A stretch of 64,000 nt of DNA, taken from Lagopus muta. Taxonomy: Eukaryota; Chordata; Aves; Galliformes; Phasianidae. The position numbers were made by a program, and so were the translations under genes. Numbering within the stretch: the first letter of the stretch is position 1; each line of letters begins with the position of its first letter. Below the pieces are notes generated by a model that saw only the letters and a list, made by a program, of their open reading frames with translations, ran no database searches and was not told where the DNA came from. The stretch covers positions 8,485,219 to 8,549,218 of the forward strand of contig NC_064444.1 in NCBI RefSeq assembly GCF_023343835.1, given 5' to 3'. This document shows positions 7,221 to 20,223 of this stretch, piece after piece.

Positions 7221-7380
7221 TAACCTGTTGTATTTCTCAGAAAGATAAGCATTTGTTCATCCTTTGTGAAATGGATAGCACCACAAAATCAAATTCCAGT
7301 GATTACCCATTTATTTTACTCTCTTTAAAATATCATTAATTTCTTCATCTGTGAGATTTTTTCAGGTTCTTCTCTTGTTT
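7221..7380 (-). pseudogene. TERB1: Fossil of the TERB1 Myb/SANT-domain exon
   Basis: One minus-strand frame reads NKRRT, stop, KNLTDEEINDILKRVK, stop, MGNHWNLILWCYPFHKG, stop, TNAYLSEKYNR. This is the Myb/SANT helix pattern at the C-terminus of vertebrate TERB1 (recalled family pattern: TxEEIxYL...GVKKMGNHWNSILWSYPF...KY). The stops are TGA at 7362-7364, TAA at 7311-7313 and TGA at 7257-7259, all in one frame. The piece lies about 1.05 kb downstream of the ILLTP exon, on the right strand and in the right order. No good acceptor precedes it. It therefore looks like a degraded exon of the host gene, not a translated one. Sequencing error would have to explain three separate stops. Confidence 0.82.
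7310..7315 (-). terminator. TERB1: Candidate poly(A) signal AATAAA for the shortened TERB1 mRNA
   Basis: On the minus strand AATAAA overlaps the TAA stop of the Myb fossil, and a GT-rich stretch (TTTTGTGGTG) follows about 20 nt downstream. It lies about 1.1 kb after the predicted stop codon. An ATTAAA at 7875-7880 is an alternative. Use of either is inferred. Confidence 0.35.
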
Positions 7381-8428
7381 AAAGCTCTTGTGTTTATATC
7401 CAGGTAACATTTCTCACTGTTCTGCATTTATTTTGGTGTAATTAAAAATCATGTCAACTTACATAGTATTTCACATTAGAAGGAATGCATTGTTGTTCAG
7501 AACTAGTTGAGAATTGTGTTGCCAGCAAACAGTCAACACAATGACATTTTTCAAACATGTTATGTTCAGCCTTTTCTTCACTGTCACCCATTTACTCAAA
7601 TAAAGGCAAATGTCAGAAAAATACTGCATTTTTGTTGCGCTTACATAACTCACACTCTCAGTATTTGTTTTCCAGTCAGGACAGCTATTTCTTTTAGGTG
7701 TGTACCATTTCTATACTGTGCCAACTTTCACAAGCTCAGGATATAAGCATACTTCCATTTCCATTACTTGTGGAAGTTCCATTATTTGAAAATAACTAAC
7801 AATAGAAAAATAGTTAACTTGTTTCAGGGATATGCCACTATGACTGCAGTAGAATCAGCAGGGAAAGATCTGTATTTAATATGGTTCACTTAGGTATTGG
7901 GCTCCTGTTAAAGGTGACTTCAAATGGAATTACACAGTTTTCAGTGATTTTACAAAGATAAAGACAAGTGTATAAGGCTGCACACAGGTAACCTCATCTT
8001 CATCAAGGGAACATAGACAATTTTCTTTTAACTGTTGGGATTCATGGCTGCACATTTCTTTCACACCCTCTCTCTCCAAGTTTGCATCTTGCCTTTTTTG
8101 GAAGGCTACGAAACTGTGAAGGCCAACCCTCGGCCACTTTGAACTAACTGAACTCGACTGTAAGCCTGACTCCTGTGCTGGGAAGGAACATTGCCTCTAA
8201 TGAACATGGATACGCACACGTTGCCTTATTACTAATATCTATTTCTCATTAGACCTTTTACTCATTATTGGCATTAACATGTCTGAATTAGTTAGGTACT
8301 GGAGGCAAGTAGCAAAACAATAGGATTTAAGTTAAAATAAAGTTAAGTAATCTTATGATTGAAGCTACAAGAATATCTATTAAAATCCTCAGCCATTTGT
8401 TTCCAAGCAGCAAGCACGGACACTTTTT

Positions 8429-11400
8429 TCAGTGCCCTGAACTAAAGGTAAAACCTGATCTTTCAGCTTTTCTTGTTACAGAACTAATTTTCTGGTGATA
8501 CTCACATTTTTCATATGTTGGTTGCAAGTTATATTCTTCAGATAACCGAGTATTTTTATTATGCTGATATCTATTCAAAGTATTGGGTTTGCTTTTTCTA
8601 ATTGGAGTCAAAAGAATACCTTAAAAACAACAAAACATCATGTATTTTACTTTCAAAAAAACGGAGCAGCAACACACAGGTAACATTTCAGGAACTAAAA
8701 CTTAAAGTATCTTCTGAGCCATGTTACCACCTGGTTTTTGAGGAAAGACTGAAAAATCCAATTAACTTCAGAAAATGTTTAATTGCTAGAAGTAATATAT
8801 TGGTGTAATGTCAAAATGGGAATGTTTGTTTTGTTTTGTTTTTTTAAAAAGTAATATGAATGTTCAAAAATTTAAGTACTGATTTAGAGAGCTGCTTTAG
8901 CCTGTGTTACAACTTCCAGTCATCCATGCTAAGAGACAGTACTGGTTATTACTCTATGAACGTATTATTTCATGATTGTAGGCCAAGCTCTGCATGTACC
9001 CAGAATCACCAGATTCTAAAGAAAACTCCTTAGGAATGACGTATAGTATATGCATCTGCAGAGTAATGGAAAGAGTTAATAAAACTTACTTTTCACTGTG
9101 CTATAGAGTATTTTAAAAGATACATAATCCACTATTTATAAATGAACAGTTGTTGTTGTGCATTATCAAGATAACCAGGTTTTGTTTTGTTTTTTAAAGG
9201 GGCAACTGATGGAACTTATCCTCACTTGTCTATCTCCATTTGTCATTAACATCTTACTCAACCCCTCATATTGCAGGACAGGTAAAAAATACCTTATTTA
9301 CTTAATTTTCTGATAGTTTGCTTTCTGATACTTTTCTGATACTTGTTCCAGTATTGTCGTATAATTGAAGTTTTACACATCTAGCTATGCAGCACATAGA
9401 AACTCAAGTGCCTGTCAGAATTCCAAGAAGGAACAAAAGCAGGTATGATAGGATAACAGCTATAACGGTACAACAGAATTATGTCGAATCCAAGAACAGA
9501 CAGATGCACTGTGCTCTGATTCCAGTACCTTTCCACACCTTAAGCACCAAAACAAAACAAAAAATAGCAGGTTGCACAAAAGAAATCCTAGCAGGATTCA
9601 ACAATGTACCAGAAAACTTAATTATTAAGTAGTGTAATAGTTTCACAGTTATAGAACATACATTGTCTGACAGCTTTATGACAGCATTCATAGAACTTTA
9701 TTATAACTCCTATCCACAAGCTCTCATGGTGAAGCCCTGGAAGAGAATTATTCAGACAATAAGTGGTTTTTGCACTAACTTCCAAGTTAAGGCCTTACTT
9801 TGGAAATTATCCTGTTTGCTCTTTAAAGATGTCTCTGCTAGCAGTTTTCCTTTCTTCACTGGAGTCAGCAATATCTCTAGAAAGATCAAATGGGACACCA
9901 TTAAAAATGCCAGAAAACTGTTTTTTTGGTTTTTTTGTTTTTGTTTTTTTTTCAAATGCCTCTTTCAAACCATAAAATAGCAGATGTACTTTTAATTAAA
10001 ATTATGATTAATAATTATAGGCCTCTTACATCCTTTGGCAGTTTATACTAGAATGAAACAAGCTTCTTACAAGGTTCATCTATTCACATTTATTTCAGCT
10101 TCATATTCTCTCTTCTATTAATAATATTTGACAAACTCCGGCAGCGTTGCTTGCAATGAAGATTCACCACTGCTTCAAGTACAATATTCAAAAACACCAA
10201 GTCAAAAGAGAAGTGACTAGCTCCAACCTCATTTGGCAGGATTACTGGTAAATCATACAAAACAAGTGAGCTCACAAGAGCAGCATGATCAGAATCAGGC
10301 TAAACAAGTGTGGAACTCAAAACGCAGTTTAAAAGAATTAGGACAGTTAGTAAAAAACAAATTACTCTGATAAGCTGCATGTCTTCTGTTAGAGCCACAT
10401 GATTTCTGAAGTTTCTTTTTATATCTTTCTTCAGCTTCCAGAATGACTCTGTGACGGCCACACAGGTATGGACAAGTTTGCAACATCTTACTAAAAGTTC
10501 TGCTATTGAAAGACAGTCCTGTTGTTGTACAACCTGGAAGAAAATAGGGATGGTAGTCATCGTAAAATCCAGAATTTTGCTGACTGTGATCTACAGTTAA
10601 TGTCCAAGTTTCATTACATGTCTCAGAATTGTCTGCACTCAACAGCAGTAAGGCAGAAAAAAAAGAACTGCTAGAGGCTTAGCTAGATGAATACAAAAAT
10701 AAACTGAACAGGGCTCCATTTTTTCCCCTCCTTCTTTCCAAAAAGAGAAAAAGAAAACAGCAGGAAAAGAAAACAACAGGTCCTAAGTATTCTTGTAGCT
10801 ACGCTCTCCTAAGCTTGAGGAAAGACATATTAAACAAAATTGGAATAGATTAGCTCTATGTCAACATTTGTTTTATTTTAAATGCAGAAAAAGGAAAGGA
10901 AGCAGATAAAATTACAGAATAAGTAATTTATGTAATGCCAAGTTTACTTGCTGAATTGCTGGTTCTTTAATTCTTCTTTTCTGAACTTAGCAAAGAAAGA
11001 CCTGAGATACTTACCCAAACACAGGAAGTCTGTCATTTTAAGGGATGCAGTTGTAATCAAATTAATTTTTTCTTCCTTGGTTATCTCTGAGTAGAATGAA
11101 TGTTGGTCTGAAGTAGGAAGAAAAAAAACATTAGGAAGAAAATGCAAGCTATCTTTTTCTGTGGAAATCACATATGAGCATACCAACGTTCAGTTGTATT
11201 TTCTATTAGTAGATTACTAGGAAAGTTTAATTGGCATAACAGCAGAAAACTTTAACTTTAGAAATTTCTGTTCAATGGGCATATTGACACTGTCATACAT
11301 CCAGAATAATTACATTTAATTTCCTAATGAAGCACATTGCTTGAACTTGAACAGACCAAAATAGACCTGTAAACTTACACTGCTTAATGAAGCCATACGA

Positions 11401-14400
11401 ACATTATTAATATTTAGAATCAGATGCTCAAAGTGTGATATAACGGAATAATGCTTTTCTCTATCTAAATAATTGTACATGGAGATCAGTTTGGACCCTT
11501 GTAAAGCTACCATTTTGACAAACAGTAAACTCATGAATGGTTTTATAAATTAATGGTAAGCTACATTATGAGTAATGATTTGACTGACCAGATCCTAATT
11601 CTGAAATAAATACCCCAGAGAAAGAAGATCAGTGCAAATCTGAAAAACCTCATCCTACAAGCATTCAACACAGAGAGCTTCAGGCAGAAATCACTCCCAC
11701 AGGTAGGTTCTACCCTTGCTCTTACAAGCACAGTACAAAAGCAGTTCTCCTGCACATTTTCTATTAAGGGCTTATACTTTTCAGTACAGGTTGCATTCAG
11801 ACTTGACTTTAAGTATTTATCTGTAAGACATTCATTTGAATAGTTAAAAAAGAAAGGAAAAAAAAAAAAGTATTACAATAAAAGCAGAACAAACTCTCCT
11901 GGTAAAATTGTGTGCAATATAGAATTCCAAAATTACTCTAACAGTTACAGAATATACATAATGTATTTTGCCATCTAATTAGATTTTACACCTGATAAAA
12001 AGCAGTGATAAAAGCAAGCATTAAAAGTTAAGAACAAAATTATCTAAAAATAAGAATACATTTAGCTACTTGTACCTGGTGTGCTTGCCCATTTCATATG
12101 CTTAATAGTCTTCCCTGGTTGTTGAAGTAAGCCTTTCCTAGAAAGATTAACAACGTGAACAAAATTTAAAACACATTTAACTGCACATTAATACACAAAT
12201 TTCAGAGACAAAACAAAAACCACACTAAACAAAAATCAAATAAAATTCTAAAAACAAAACAATTCTATTTATTACCTATTCTATTTGTCCCATAAGTTAC
12301 AAGTTACACAGCAAGAAGCATGCAGCATATTACCAAGTGCCTGCTTTCAGCATTCCTTGCAGTGCTGCTCAGCACACCTGCTCCAGCATCAGGAATACAG
12401 CGTTTTCCAAGTGCTGGTTTCCAGAGTCATTTTCAATTCTGGTTTACGTCACATTTTAGTACACATTAAACTTCCACAATTGGCAGAATGCTACAGTTTG
12501 CACACAATGTAGCAATTACTTTCATGCAACCATATGTTGCCATGGTACCACAATTATTCTTGCAAATTGTCATTAATTTTTTCTTTATCAGTAAGAGAGA
12601 TGACCGTGAGAAGGAAAACAGGAAAGCAAGCGTTCTGTGAGACAAGCGGGCAAAGCAAGAGAACAGCAAAGTAACTGTACACATCTTTTTCTTCCCACTT
12701 AGCAGAAGAATGGAGGAAGAGCAAGGAAGGAAGAGAAGCATAAGAAAACCAAAATTTTCTTCTTAATTCACAGACATTAAAATGCAAATTCTTGCAGAAC
12801 TGGTCTGTAAGTGCAGTTCTCCTTGTAAATGCACATGACAGAAGTATTTTGGTTTCATCCACACTAACAGGTCAATTCCTCATCTAATCAAACGTGAGAA
12901 TTGAAGGCCACAATCTATGGATGCTTTTTCACCACTAGGCTTAAGGCATTGGAATGTGGCCTGTTACAGGCTCTCCATACTCACCATCAGAATCCTATCA
13001 TTAAGAGAAAAAAGGACTTTACAGATGATGGTACTACAGACTCTATAATCTTTGGTTTCTGATGTCAAAAACACTTGCATAGAATATTTTCCTGCTGGAC
13101 AACAAACATTTACAGCTTTTCACTTGTAGCAAAAGACCAAGCTAGGAAGCAATGATTGAAAAGGCTGACATTCAATTAGGAAATGATAATCAAGAGCAAC
13201 TTACTAATTTTGGTATGATGCAAGATGCCTACCTTAGCTGAAGAACAGACTGACTTTTTTCACCTGCTGTTTTTTCATTTGCACTACGACTTTGAATTGC
13301 AGTGTCTGACTGCATCGCATAAACTGAACGTGGAATATCACTCTGTTTACTTTTTCTAGCAGAAGCATTTACTGGATTCTCAGTCAGTGCAGAAGAATTT
13401 ACAGCTAGAGCAAGAACTCCGTCATCCAACTTAGAAGTTAACTGTGAACCACATAATTCTTTGCACGTTCTTTCTATACATGCTTTTTTATCACTGGGAT
13501 TCACTTCAGAAGCCAGCATTGAAGCATCAAAATCCCATGAACTCCTGTCAAACGGTCTTTCTTCCGCTCCTTCCTTAATTGAAAAACATTTGTTAATGAC
13601 CAAACAAGCTCTATTAAAAATGCTGAATAAACCTATTAACAAGATTAACTAAAATACATCAGTTTAACTCCTGACTGATTGAGAGCCAACAAAACAGCAC
13701 AGCTACCAAGAGTTGAAGGGCAGTTATTAAGTCATAGTACCAGGCTGAAATAATTTGCTACTCATACACATCACTTGAAAAGTCTAAGATTACCTCAAGA
13801 TCCAGCCAAGTAACACAAAAATTGCTACTCCACAATCAAAGATACCATGTACCATGGTAGTTACACGGCACAAAGAAAATATGGGATAACAATATTATAT
13901 TCTGTAATCACATTTGTCCATTAGCTATCCTGTCACAACAGTACAATCATGGACATTTCAAGCATGCAGATATTAAGATTACAAATAAAAATGATCAGCA
14001 ATTAAAAGAAAATCGAGCTGTTGCTTTTCCAACCTAAATGATCTCAACTTCATAGAAAATCTGATTTTACAATCAACTAAAATAGCTCATAAGAATACAA
14101 ATGCTTGCATTTCCTGATTGCACTGCACACTTCTAAGTTCGTATTTCTAAGTATGCATTATGTGCAATAACAGCAAAAGCTCCAGGTTGTAGTTTCTCAT
14201 ACATCCAATGTTCTCTCATGTCCTAGCTCACAATGAAATTATCTTAATGGTTTATTTCCTATAGCTCCTTACACTCAGAAAATCTGTAGTTTTACCTTAC
14301 CTCCATAAACATGCTAATCTCCTCATGTTCTTTTTCAATCAAGTTTATTCTGTGCAGAATGTCTTTTGCTTTCTTCCAGTAGTTTCGCTGATTTCTTTCT

Positions 14401-17400
14401 CTGATTTGCATGTCCACCTCCAGCTCTTCTGCATTCTTCACACTTAGGGACTTCTCATTTATTTTCAAGGACAACTGTTTAGCTGTATAAAACAAAATTA
14501 AAATTATTTAACAAATATTTTATAATTTATAATAAAATTATATAATAATTATTATATGGTGGCAACATACAACTTTCATGCAGAAAATAAATATCTTTGA
14601 GTACAAAGAACACAAAGCTTTTATACTTAAAATAATCTAGAAAGTTCAGAGAACTTAAATACAGAAACCATCTCTCTGATTTTTCAAGCACTAACAGTAA
14701 GCTTACTCATTTGCTTGCAGTTCTGTAGCACAAAAGTAGCAGCTTTGTGTAGTTCCTCATCCTGAGACTCAGTTAGTACCTGAATCATAAGTGGAAGACC
14801 ATTGTTCTTGAGCAGTTCACACTGGTTTTCTTCTGAAATAGGAAGTTATAATGAAAATCAGTTCGTTCCAAGCTCATACACACTTAATCTGACAAGCAGT
14901 TTTAGAAACAAAACCAGTAACCTCCAGGGAAATTCTAAAACAACTAATTGTAAAAGATTCTTATTAAGAATACAAGCACGCTGTAATGACCCTGTCACCC
15001 AGGCTGAGCAGAAGCACTCTACATCACATCGGATGCTTTGACCACAGTTCAAAACTGCTGTAAGAAACATGACGAAGGACTAAGTCAAATCACACACCAG
15101 ACATTTGTACCCATTTAGTTGTGGTCTAAAATATTTGAATTATGCTTCGTATTTCTTGACCTCTGGTCTGAATGAATTAATTGTAGAATTTTTCAGATGA
15201 ATTTTACCCTGTGATCCCTAAAACCAGCTCTGAATTCTTACATAATAGCTTACTTTTCTCAAACATACTATGAGTTAACAGGTCTTAAAGTTTAGAGGTG
15301 GAAGTAAACTTTTCTGAATATTAAATTACATTATTTAATAGAATATTCCTTCCCTCAGGTTACCAAATTTGATGAAATGATACCATTAAAGTAGCTGGTA
15401 TATGAGAATTCAGTAAAAATATGTCAAAAAGAAGAAGAAAATCTTACCAGAGACTTCAGTACAGTGTCCAATTGTTAGAATAACACTCATTTTTTCTCCC
15501 GTATCCAGAGTGTCATTAGACAGTAGGTTCAGCAGTTCTGACACAGTGTGATACTTCGCCAAAACAACAGCCATGGCAGCTATCATGTTGAAAATAATTT
15601 AAAGAAATCTATCAGATAATAAACAAACAGGCAGCATTCAAATATGATGTTTAAAGGCACTGTCAGCAGACCTCCAAAAGCAGTCCCACTTCTGTCTCAC
15701 TTTCATTTCAACAGTTTGAATTACCACACCTCTGCTGGTGCAGTAATTCCATGTGTGCTATTCCTCATAACCAGCACTGCCCTTTCCTCTGAATTGCACT
15801 CAGTAGAGATGTGGTCGATCTGACAAATGAGAGTTTTGCAATGTGCAAGTTTTGTACACCTCTGCTGAGTTTTTCCTCATCCTTCATTGGTTCCATAACC
15901 GAACTGCTACAAAAGGAACTAGGAATGTTTCAGCAAGATGTTCCCTCTTTACCAGAAACAGCACTGCTACTATGTGCATGCTGAAACCTAATCCAGTCAC
16001 ATACCAACTTCTTGTAAACTAGGCCCAAAACCAGTGCAGGTATATTCTCTTAAGGTCTTTGAAACTTTAGTCAGAGCACTTGAGATAGAAGCATGAAACA
16101 CACTAAATCATGGCCACTCTGACTCAGACTCATTTCACAAAGCCTTCTGATGGAATACACAAAGACCTCATTGAGCTACCACCATCCAGATGGTAAATCA
16201 ACGTAACGATGCTTTGCAGACACAACAGGAACTATATTCACATTTCTCATTTATGTCGCTCCGTGCTTGAGCTTGTGCAACTTCTTAGTACAGACACAGG
16301 CCTGCAGAAGCACAGCTCTAACTCCAGGATCCAAGGTTACCACATTTCCAGTTCAACTTACAGGAAACTAGCACCAGCAATTTAATTTTGTTCTCAGTGT
16401 AAATTTTCTAATGTTTATTTCACTATTCCACCTCAGATTAACAGAACCATTCCCACTAGCAACTTGAATTTGATAGACTCTGCAATACAAACTGGATCTG
16501 GATATACTTAATTGCCTTTTATATCCATTCATACCACATTCTCAAACTAGACTTGAATGAAACGCATTTTAGAATTATCAGATATGAAAGTGGCAGCAGT
16601 CTTTCCACTCACAGTCATTAGCAATGCAGGCATCCAGAGTCTTTGTTACTACTATTGCAAGCTTCGTGCTAGGGTGACTCAGACAGGAATCATCATGCAT
16701 CAGCTTGAGGAGGACTTGAGCCAAGGTGTCCAATCCTCCAACAGAAACAAAATATTTCTGCACGGGGGCTTAGTGAGAACAGAAAAAAACGTGACTTAAA
16801 TACTACAGGTCTCAAATCGTATCAAATTGTTTTAGCATTTTCTTAATTAGGCCATCACTATTTTTCCACGCATTTTTTAATCATTTACACCCGCATAAAG
16901 GAACTGAAGTTGGATTTATGTTCATCCTGAGAAACGCAATAATTGCCCTAACATGAAACACATACATATAAACGGTGAACATTATGCCCAAGTTCCACCT
17001 AAATTCTGTTTTCCAAGATGCAGTAATCACTCGTATTTGTAAAATAAGCTCCACAAACTGTTTTTACTGACCTCTCTAAATTGTAACCAATGAGGCCGTT
17101 TGTATTTTTAGGCAACCAGTGCAACGTAAGAAAAAGCCAATGAATCTAGTTTTCAGTGTGATCGCCGTAAGGGCAGCAAAAGTACTTGCAGAAATTGACA
17201 AAAATAGGGAATTAAACATTTATGTATTGAAGTGCACAAAATAAAAGCTGTTTAAAGTTTTATCTTACAGTTATTTGCAACCGTGAGGCCAACAAATGAA
17301 CAAATAGGACGAACTATCTCAGGCTCCATGCAACTTTCTAGCCACTCTTTTGCATACGGAAAGACTGAACAGCAAATCTTTTGATTAGCTTCTGGGAAAG

Positions 17401-20223
17401 TAAAAACAAATAACCTCAAATCCAAGCATAATGTGCAATTTCAGCTGAACAGTAAAAACGAGAACAAAGCTTATAATTTACCACAGTTTTTAAACAGCAG
17501 CACTTACCATTCTGAGGATTGTTAACACAGGCACAGAGAGTGCTACAGACTGAACACCACAGCTGGTAGCAGCTATTTGTATTTTCATCTGACAGATTCA
17601 GCTCAGGTGTGGAAAGAGTTGTTCTGTTTAAGAAAACAAAGCAAACAAGTCCTAACTGCTCCATTGCTTTTCCTGCTTTAACAGCAGCTGTTTGTTTACC
17701 TGAATAACTGCAGCAGCAGATCAATGCAGCCTGTTTCCCTGACATAGGTTTGGCCAAGTTCTGAAAGTGAACACATAGCAGAATGCAACAAAATCTTAGT
17801 GTCAAATCCAACTTGCATTTAAGTCCTCCATTCCCTATGCATATTCTACCCTCTCCTCAACAGAGGATCACACAAACATTGGCAAATGCATTTCTATTCT
17901 ATGCTTAACTTTTTCTACATTGTCAGAAACCACTGGTTTAATTTTTAAAAAACTATAATCACGTTGTTAGAACTACAATATTTTTTCCTATTTAAGGAAA
18001 TCCCAGTGAGCAACAGTTTACTTAGATTTATTTTACTTACATGGATGACCTCTCCCAACCTAAATGATTCTACAGCTACGTCTGATCTACATGCAACCTG
18101 ATAAGTTGATTTTACAAAAACATTACTAAGTATTCCAAATTTCCATCACACACATTGGAAAGCATAAAAAGAAAATGTGAGTAAAATATGTGTTATAACA
18201 AAAAAACACTTACTATTATTTGAAACCAGTGCCAAGATGACATAAACAGACATTCTTTTCAAGTTCACACCAGAATCCTTATTCATTAATAATGAAATGA
18301 GGTCCTCAAATAATGCAGAAGAACACAAAGTTTGTTGGCAGTAAACTGAAACCAGAAAACAAAAACCATTAATTCCTAAAGCAAACTATTCACAGTCATT
18401 AATTAGTTTGTTAATACAGTAAATAGATGCTCAGTTGTATCCAATGCACGGTGAGCAGAGTCAAAACAGGCCTACAAAGGGACTCAGGGCTTCCTCCTGC
18501 CATCAGTTCTAAATTATCTCAGCCCCAGGCAAACTTTGGAACAGTCTGCATGTCATTACACTTGTTAATGAGGAAGCAGAGCTGCCTGTTGTCATACAGA
18601 CAAGCTGGCTACATAAATCCCATACAGACAGATATATTAACCCTAACCCCATTTCTTCAAATCTTGGGGTGGTCAGTGAAATAGCAACACATTTGCTGCC
18701 TTTCACATTAACTTGTTATTCTGTAACATGATTTTTGATGAAAAAAGATAGGGACAAAGCACAGTATAACATCATCACGGCCAACATGGAAATACACGAA
18801 GTAGTGTTTATTACCATTACTCTCTATTATGATTCCTAGTGTAAATAAAGCTGCTTCCTTCACTATGCCATGAGCACTTGACTTTGCAAGATCATTTATA
18901 AACCCCAAACCACCAATTTCTCGTAAATATTCACAAGCTTCACCTGTAACAGGAAAGAAAAAAAAATTAATTTTCTTTTTGTTACTGTGCAAGAAGAAAA
19001 TCTTAAGATGTTACAGTTCCAGTCTTATGTCCTTTGGCTAATGTTTTTTTTTCTGCCTACAGTAACAACCAATTTCTTAACATACATTGCAAATGAAAAT
19101 GACTGTGTTGTTTCCAAGGGAAAAATGGTTCTTACTATTTTGTTGACAAATTGAATAAATAGTGATCAAAGCCTCTTTCTGGGATGAAGGGCAGTCCATC
19201 TGGTATTTAAGGCATTCAAGCAGTAAGTTCAAATCTGTTTTCATATCTAAACGTAAAAAAGGAAGTTTCACATGAAGTGTTATCTTTTCTTCATATAAAT
19301 TCATTTTGTATTAAAGTAAAACGTCCCCAAAACATAGCATGGATATGTAATCTAACAAACAAACAAAAAAAAAAAGCACAAGAAAAGCACTTTTATACAT
19401 CTATACATAGCAAGCATAACCTACATCCCACTATAGACATTCCTACCTACAGTGATTTGATCATGACCAATAGTTAGTTATTTGAACACTGCTTTGCTAA
19501 AAATGGCAGCCTCATTTTAATATTTCTGGTCTTTCATTGTTACCTTATTGTAAATATCAATAATTGTTAGTAAATGGGATATAAGTTACTAAATAGTATG
19601 TTTTCCACTTGCAAGATGCATTAAGTATATTTAGCGAATAATACAGAGTCATGAAAATCTGAGTGCATTACCAAGAGAATCCAGCAGGATTAAGCTAGAT
19701 GCCAAGGCTTGCTACCTGGTGTTTATTTAAAGACTGAATCACTTGCACAAGAGGCAGCACCTTGACTCAGGTGCTTATGTCAGTAGGTTAATAACAAAGC
19801 ATTTGGGAAAAGGGGCAACTACATACAACCCCAAAGAGATAAGTGATTATGATAACTTGTTTCTTAGACTTCTGCTATAATGTAATGACTCATTTAATGA
19901 CTATTTAGTAACTTGGCAGCAGCAGATACTGTATATCTGAAGCACCTGCACAGTTGCAGGTTTCTTTAAAAAGTTACAGTACTAGAAAAACATGGGTAAA
20001 TATTAGCAGGAAAGTGACTTTGTGGTAACAGCATTTATCATTTGAACAAGGCAAGAATTTTAAAATCTGACAAGGAAAAAGAACATTTCCCTCTAACAGT
20101 TCACCCTCCCTGGAAAGTCTTGTCACAACCTACTAAAGCTTTGTAAAATAGATTTAGGTAATAAAGGAAAATGATTTCAGGTATCTCACCACATTGTGGT
20201 TTGTGCGCCTTTTGATTTTCCAT
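8429..20223 (-). CDS. TERB1: Telomere repeats-binding bouquet formation protein 1, 16 coding exons, predicted to lack the Myb domain
   Basis: Meiosis-specific protein that, with TERB2 and MAJIN, attaches telomeres to the inner nuclear membrane. Coding exons: 20190-20223 (start ATG 20223), 19136-19246, 18815-18943, 18214-18345, 17700-17760, 17508-17623, 17269-17391, 16613-16768, 15448-15579, 14707-14832, 14301-14482, 13233-13573, 12076-12137, 11015-11107, 10366-10533 and 8429-8619. Every junction keeps frame. Residues 12-373 form ARM-like repeats (TDLNLLLECLKYQMD, REIGGLGFINDLAKSS, LKRMSVYVILALVSNN, VQKYFVSVGGLDTL). Residues 374-434 are charged and probably coiled coil (YWKKAKDILHRINLIEKEHE). 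GLSFNSRTFSKMLQTCPYLC in exon 15 matches the TERB2-binding region. Exon 16 opens with ILLTPIRK, the TRF1-binding IxLTP motif with a CDK-like TPIR. The next donor (GTTTTA) is weak; reading on gives GFTFSSGH and a TGA at 8429-8431, total 718 aa. The Myb exon that should follow is decayed (see 7221-7380). Exon 8 uses the acceptor ctcactaag. Gene identity is sure; the C-terminus is inferred. Confidence 0.92.

Follow-up and report, generated by a model that had tools for sequence, protein, structure and literature searches.

A decayed Myb exon in place at the end of TERB1 in Lagopus muta

What is the Myb domain of TERB1 for? The closest described system is the mouse Terb1 dMYB allele, which encodes a TERB1 without a working Myb domain and with the remainder of the protein present. 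According to the passages of PMC8867601 on which we draw, TERB1, TERB2 and MAJIN localise normally in dMYB animals, and telomere attachment and synapsis are kept. Their telomeres lose cohesin and axial elements, and telomeric DNA separates from the chromosome ends. An earlier note on the DNA described here had assigned the mouse Myb domain to cohesin enrichment at telomeres rather than to core attachment, in agreement with these passages. Fertility is reduced in dMYB mice, although healthy young can be born to them, and from its conservation the domain was argued to matter over evolutionary time (PMC8867601).

A second point of comparison is comparative. TERB1 may be Myb-less in Anthozoa, Arthropoda, Priapulida, Cephalopoda, hemichordates, cephalochordates and 'some Chordata (Vertebrata)', an absence still awaiting verification, with annotation errors allowed for by the authors (PMC7227075). 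Its main text uses none of the words chicken, bird, gallus, aves and sauropsid. The TERB1 Myb domain in birds is likewise not treated in the passages seen of PMC7494361 and PMC8531508, nor in the titles and abstract openings returned by a literature search of open-licence PMC articles without their supplements. Expression of Terb1 in duck embryonic gonads is described in an excerpt of PMC9643717.

The locus described here shares with both systems a TERB1 apparently without its Myb domain. The mouse allele, however, is an engineered laboratory allele, whereas in the bird, in one genome, both the reading frame and the splice signals have been lost naturally. The candidates named in PMC7227075 are database proteins in which annotation errors are possible; Myb-less TERB1 was already suspected there in some vertebrates, whereas the bird locus still shows the remains of the exon at its original site.

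The open exons of TERB1

The window, that is, the whole stretch of 64,000 nucleotides analysed (C15:8485219-8549218), belongs to an assembly of 1,026,658,476 bases in 165 contigs. The features of TERB1 and of its Myb exon are as follows.

14301..19246, minus strand: ten N-terminal TERB1 matches, open, start codon at 19244, each with a nearby AG scoring at least 3.8
13229..13648, minus strand: open frame in mid-TERB1, a possible large exon by position only, matched to no reference
10366..10533, minus strand: TERB2-binding (T2B) exon, open, matching human 6j07_B (E 1.6e-14), its ends being the best nearby splice sites
8429..8619, minus strand: ILLTP exon (TRF1-binding type motif), probably now the terminal coding exon, with its own stop TGA 8431-8429 and a poor donor at 8455/8454
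7384..7386, minus strand: AG 7386-7385 with first exon base 7384, of fitting phase, without a pyrimidine tract, score -10.6
7221..7381, minus strand: decayed TERB1 Myb exon, defined by a protein match to 1x58, in-frame stops and splice scores

A human TERB1 query gave 13 tblastn rows in the window. Eleven of these are stop-free, namely ten that run in order between the start codon at 19244 and 14319, and the T2B exon. The remaining two (E 0.23 and 0.69) lie elsewhere in the window, contain stops and were set aside as chance. The ten ordered matches to this query mark the N-terminal ARM-repeat region of TERB1, and the match to 6j07_B marks the TERB2-binding region of a TERB1 orthologue. Two joined ARM pieces found nothing relevant in the PDB, and the middle of the protein (residues about 414-578 of the human sequence) gave no tblastn match in place in the window.

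The ILLTP exon was recognised from its motif and position. It spans 8619-8429, carries the IxLxP TRF1-binding motif as ILLTP, and is without a match in the PDB or Pfam. A further 57 codons follow ILLTP and end in SGFTFSSGH, again without a PDB or Pfam match. This tail is presumably longer than that of human TERB1. The motif was compared with the descriptions in PMC7227075 and PMC6297230; in the latter, T648 of human TERB1, within the TRF1-binding site, is described as a CDK site. The TP of this site is kept within the bird motif.

The order of N-terminal repeats, T2B region, ILLTP motif and Myb exon position is the same as in mammalian TERB1, with 1x58 as the mouse Myb and 6j07_B as the human T2B reference. 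The bird differs from the mammals in that its Myb exon is dead and its ILLTP exon has a stop of its own. Downstream of TERB1 lies what we take to be the start of DYNC1LI2, so that the fossil exon sits between the last open TERB1 exon and the next gene.

The Myb exon

Could the frame at 7381-7221 resemble a Myb domain by chance? Its minus-strand translation reads NKRRT, stop, KNLTDEEINDILKRVK, stop, MGNHWNLILWCYPFHKG, stop, TNAYLSEKYNRL. The elements TDEEIND, GNHWNLILWCYPF and SEKYNR all stand in this one frame together with the three stops, at exactly the positions that the earlier note had given for a Myb/SANT frame. With X at the stops, a PDB search matched the frame to 1x58, a mouse Myb structure, with E 1.1e-12; the second-best among the 6 matches listed reached only E 0.2. 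We take 1x58, deposited as 4930532D21Rik, to be mouse Terb1. Searched against the window by tblastn, the mouse Myb segment scored E 5.4e-14 at the Myb frame and 0.33 at the next place, and its best E in the reversed window was 0.24. Mouse segment and bird frame are identical at 25/47 residues. Pfam Myb models matched the frame weakly, under their cut-offs (E 0.022 and 0.085). The match to 1x58, together with the E values from the window and its reversed control, identifies the frame as a TERB1-type Myb exon and argues against chance. It follows the ILLTP exon (8619-8429) on the minus strand, just where the earlier note had said that the Myb exon belongs.

The in-frame stops are TGA 7364-7362, TAA 7313-7311 and TGA 7259-7257, aligned opposite mouse residues R, T and R. 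Open runs of 16 and 17 codons separate them. Beyond the final residue of the alignment another 25 codons are open before a stop at 7145-7143 closes the frame. Across the 47 residues there are 0 indels relative to mouse, and this would be compatible with a rather recent loss as well. Dating from three stops and no indel, with the indel term included, gave 0.10-0.19 changes per site. At a rate that we assumed to be 2e-9 per site and year, this corresponds to medians of 64-115 My, the 95% limits spanning 19 to 276 My, and omission of the indel term moves the medians to 144-231 My. This range is too broad for the loss to be placed on the tree.

Splice sites were scored with a simple frequency matrix, and the best sites per neighbourhood are not proven junctions. 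None of the 11 AGs whose first base lies between 7457 and 7342 scores above -3.0, and the AG of fitting phase, with first base 7384, stands at the 11th percentile of all minus-strand AGs. The claim that the exon has no usable acceptor is supported. The best acceptors near the other TERB1 exons range from 3.1 to 12.3 in 12/12 cases, versus -3.0 at the Myb exon. The ILLTP exon has a donor of -4.5 (CAG/GTTTTA at 8455/8454), and no donor in the neighbourhood does better than -3.4, at a site past the stop. The best donors near the other TERB1 exons score -1.2 to 6.6 in 11/11 cases, the T2B exon's own donor being weak. Among 5000 random neighbourhoods, 92% held an acceptor of at least -3.0 and 28% one of at least 3.1; for donors, 77% reached at least -3.4 and 51% at least -1.2. 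Since the matrix is rough, and 28% and 51% of random neighbourhoods reach the 3.1 acceptor and the -1.2 donor, only the acceptors taken as a set discriminate. In view of these percentages splicing is a supporting line, with the acceptor stronger than the donor, and the stops are the main line. The splice signals of the Myb exon look dead too.

Is there an intact copy elsewhere? Within the window none was found, the next match having E 0.33. A search of the whole 1.03-Gb assembly with the mouse Myb query, at E up to 10, returned the broken copy only. A strongly diverged second copy could escape this search, because its scoring covered a single candidate and it did not pick up the Mybs of TRF. 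The locus thus combines a homologous exon at the expected place, disabling changes in that exon, and an assembly search that yields no intact copy. The C-terminal Myb domain is absent from the open frame, and the gene is a TERB1 orthologue with this domain lost; for the bird itself, loss is very probable. Homology, splice scoring and the assembly search, with motif and position for the ILLTP exon, support the proposal that the Myb domain was lost while the N-terminal, TERB2-binding and TRF1-motif parts were kept.

A probable Myb-less TERB1 and other readings of the locus

How would such a protein work? The ILLTP exon, read through to a stop of its own, is most likely the last exon of the TERB1 message. 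The predicted product is a TERB1 with ARM repeats, the TERB2-binding region and the TRF1 motif, and without Myb. If it behaves like mouse TERB1 without Myb, it would still load at telomeres and carry TERB2-MAJIN and the SUN-KASH link. It should be unable to concentrate cohesin and axial elements at the ends of chromosomes by way of Myb. The cohesin job of the domain may be dispensable, or may be taken over by something else, such as contact between TRF1 and cohesin or the tail of TERB1; that the role is bypassed in this bird seems to us somewhat more likely than not. By this analogy with the mouse, the most likely reading is that telomeres are still tethered in the bird, by a TERB1 without Myb, and that cohesin either stays there by other means or is not required.

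Four other readings were weighed. The stops might be assembly errors or belong to one bad haplotype in a species with an intact TERB1 Myb. The basis is indeed a single assembly, but three separate stops, a missing acceptor and a poor upstream donor are features at the level of single bases that extend across 1.2 kb without a frameshift, and we give this reading hardly any credence. Scarcely more probable is that meiosis relies on a further TERB1 gene, or on a Myb exon that is still intact, located in DNA absent from the assembly, on an unplaced microchromosome or in germline-only sequence. Bird assemblies can miss GC-rich sequence; the assembly search, on the other side, gives one Myb copy only. 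The fossil could also owe its preservation to use in the 3' UTR or poly(A) signal of a shortened TERB1 message, its similarity to Myb being partly maintained by the new role. AATAAA occurs beside the fossil (7432-7427) and inside it (7315-7310), with GT contents after these hexamers of 0.42 and 0.58, respectively, and the Myb frame is indel-free. Such hexamers are common, however: the four variants sought occur 15 times between 8428 and 5000, and we consider this role improbable.

Is the cohesin role simply lost, not bypassed, so that birds tolerate telomere damage like that in mouse dMYB meiocytes? The healthy offspring possible in subfertile dMYB mice, as recorded in the passages cited (PMC8867601), speak for tolerance. 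A long-lasting loss would instead suggest compensation, though the age estimate is loose, and we regard tolerance as the less likely outcome, while giving it clearly more weight than the three readings above.

Returning to a Myb-less TERB1 that still tethers telomeres, the loss of the domain may date to an early stage of Galliformes or of a larger group of birds, with cohesin and axes held at meiotic telomeres without Myb; we put forward this reading tentatively, at slightly less than even chances. If true, it would speak against the idea that telomere integrity depends on the domain in the long run of evolution. A bird without Myb and with the rest of the tether would offer, in accessible animals, a natural test of the domain's purpose, and the same test bears on cohesin placement at meiotic telomeres.

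Partner candidates in the assembly

Matches in the assembly point to the presence of partner candidates for TERB1 (TERB2, MAJIN, TRF, STAG3-like and KASH5-like); these are matches, not whole reconstructed genes. MAJIN has 3 matches, stop-free inside, and TERB2 has 4, also stop-free inside, 3 of them above the cut-off. The TRF model gave 3 matches on two contigs, one with an internal stop and one below the cut-off.

STAG gave 8 matches (2/8 with an internal stop, 1/8 below the cut-off), among them three strong loci. Those on C12 and C16 are identical at 65/70 residues, and the one on C1 agrees with them at 49 and 50/70, respectively. This third STAG locus (C1:128961115-128962481) has diverged from the other two. 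All nine solved relatives listed for it are cohesin SA-1 and SA-2. To judge from its divergence, on which the name is based, it is probably STAG3, retained in this bird. A loss of STAG3 as a partner loss matching that of Myb was considered and rejected, a third divergent STAG locus being present.

KASH_CCD gave 12 matches, 1 above the cut-off, and EF-hand_9 gave 5, 2 above it. The best matches to the two models lie about 1.5 kb apart on C1, with EF-hand_9 followed by KASH_CCD (C1:66428693-66431823). This pairing is what we would expect of KASH5, and the locus is probably KASH5. An assignment of the KASH_CCD match to IRAG2 was dropped; the EF-hand_9 about 1.5 kb before it fits KASH5 better. KASH_CCD also matches, under its cut-off, in 5/14 control genomes.

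Globin matches in the assembly suggest Galliformes, without pointing to a species. Among single-chain entries the alpha-A pieces are closest to 9h0m, 3k8b and 2qmb (turkey) and 3mjp (quail), with those of ostrich, goose and duck behind; six fused human-type chains stand above them solely through matching twice. The beta exon equals chains of 1hbr, 12rh, 3mjp and 9h0m at 75/75 residues, but duck (3eok) departs from it at a single residue, so that this exon carries little information. The globin matches form clusters, with four beta-type matches at C1:194276573-194289259 and three alpha-type at C18:3235602-3241880. The C1 cluster holds in addition one partial match with a stop, and 1 of the 11 globin matches in the assembly has an internal stop.
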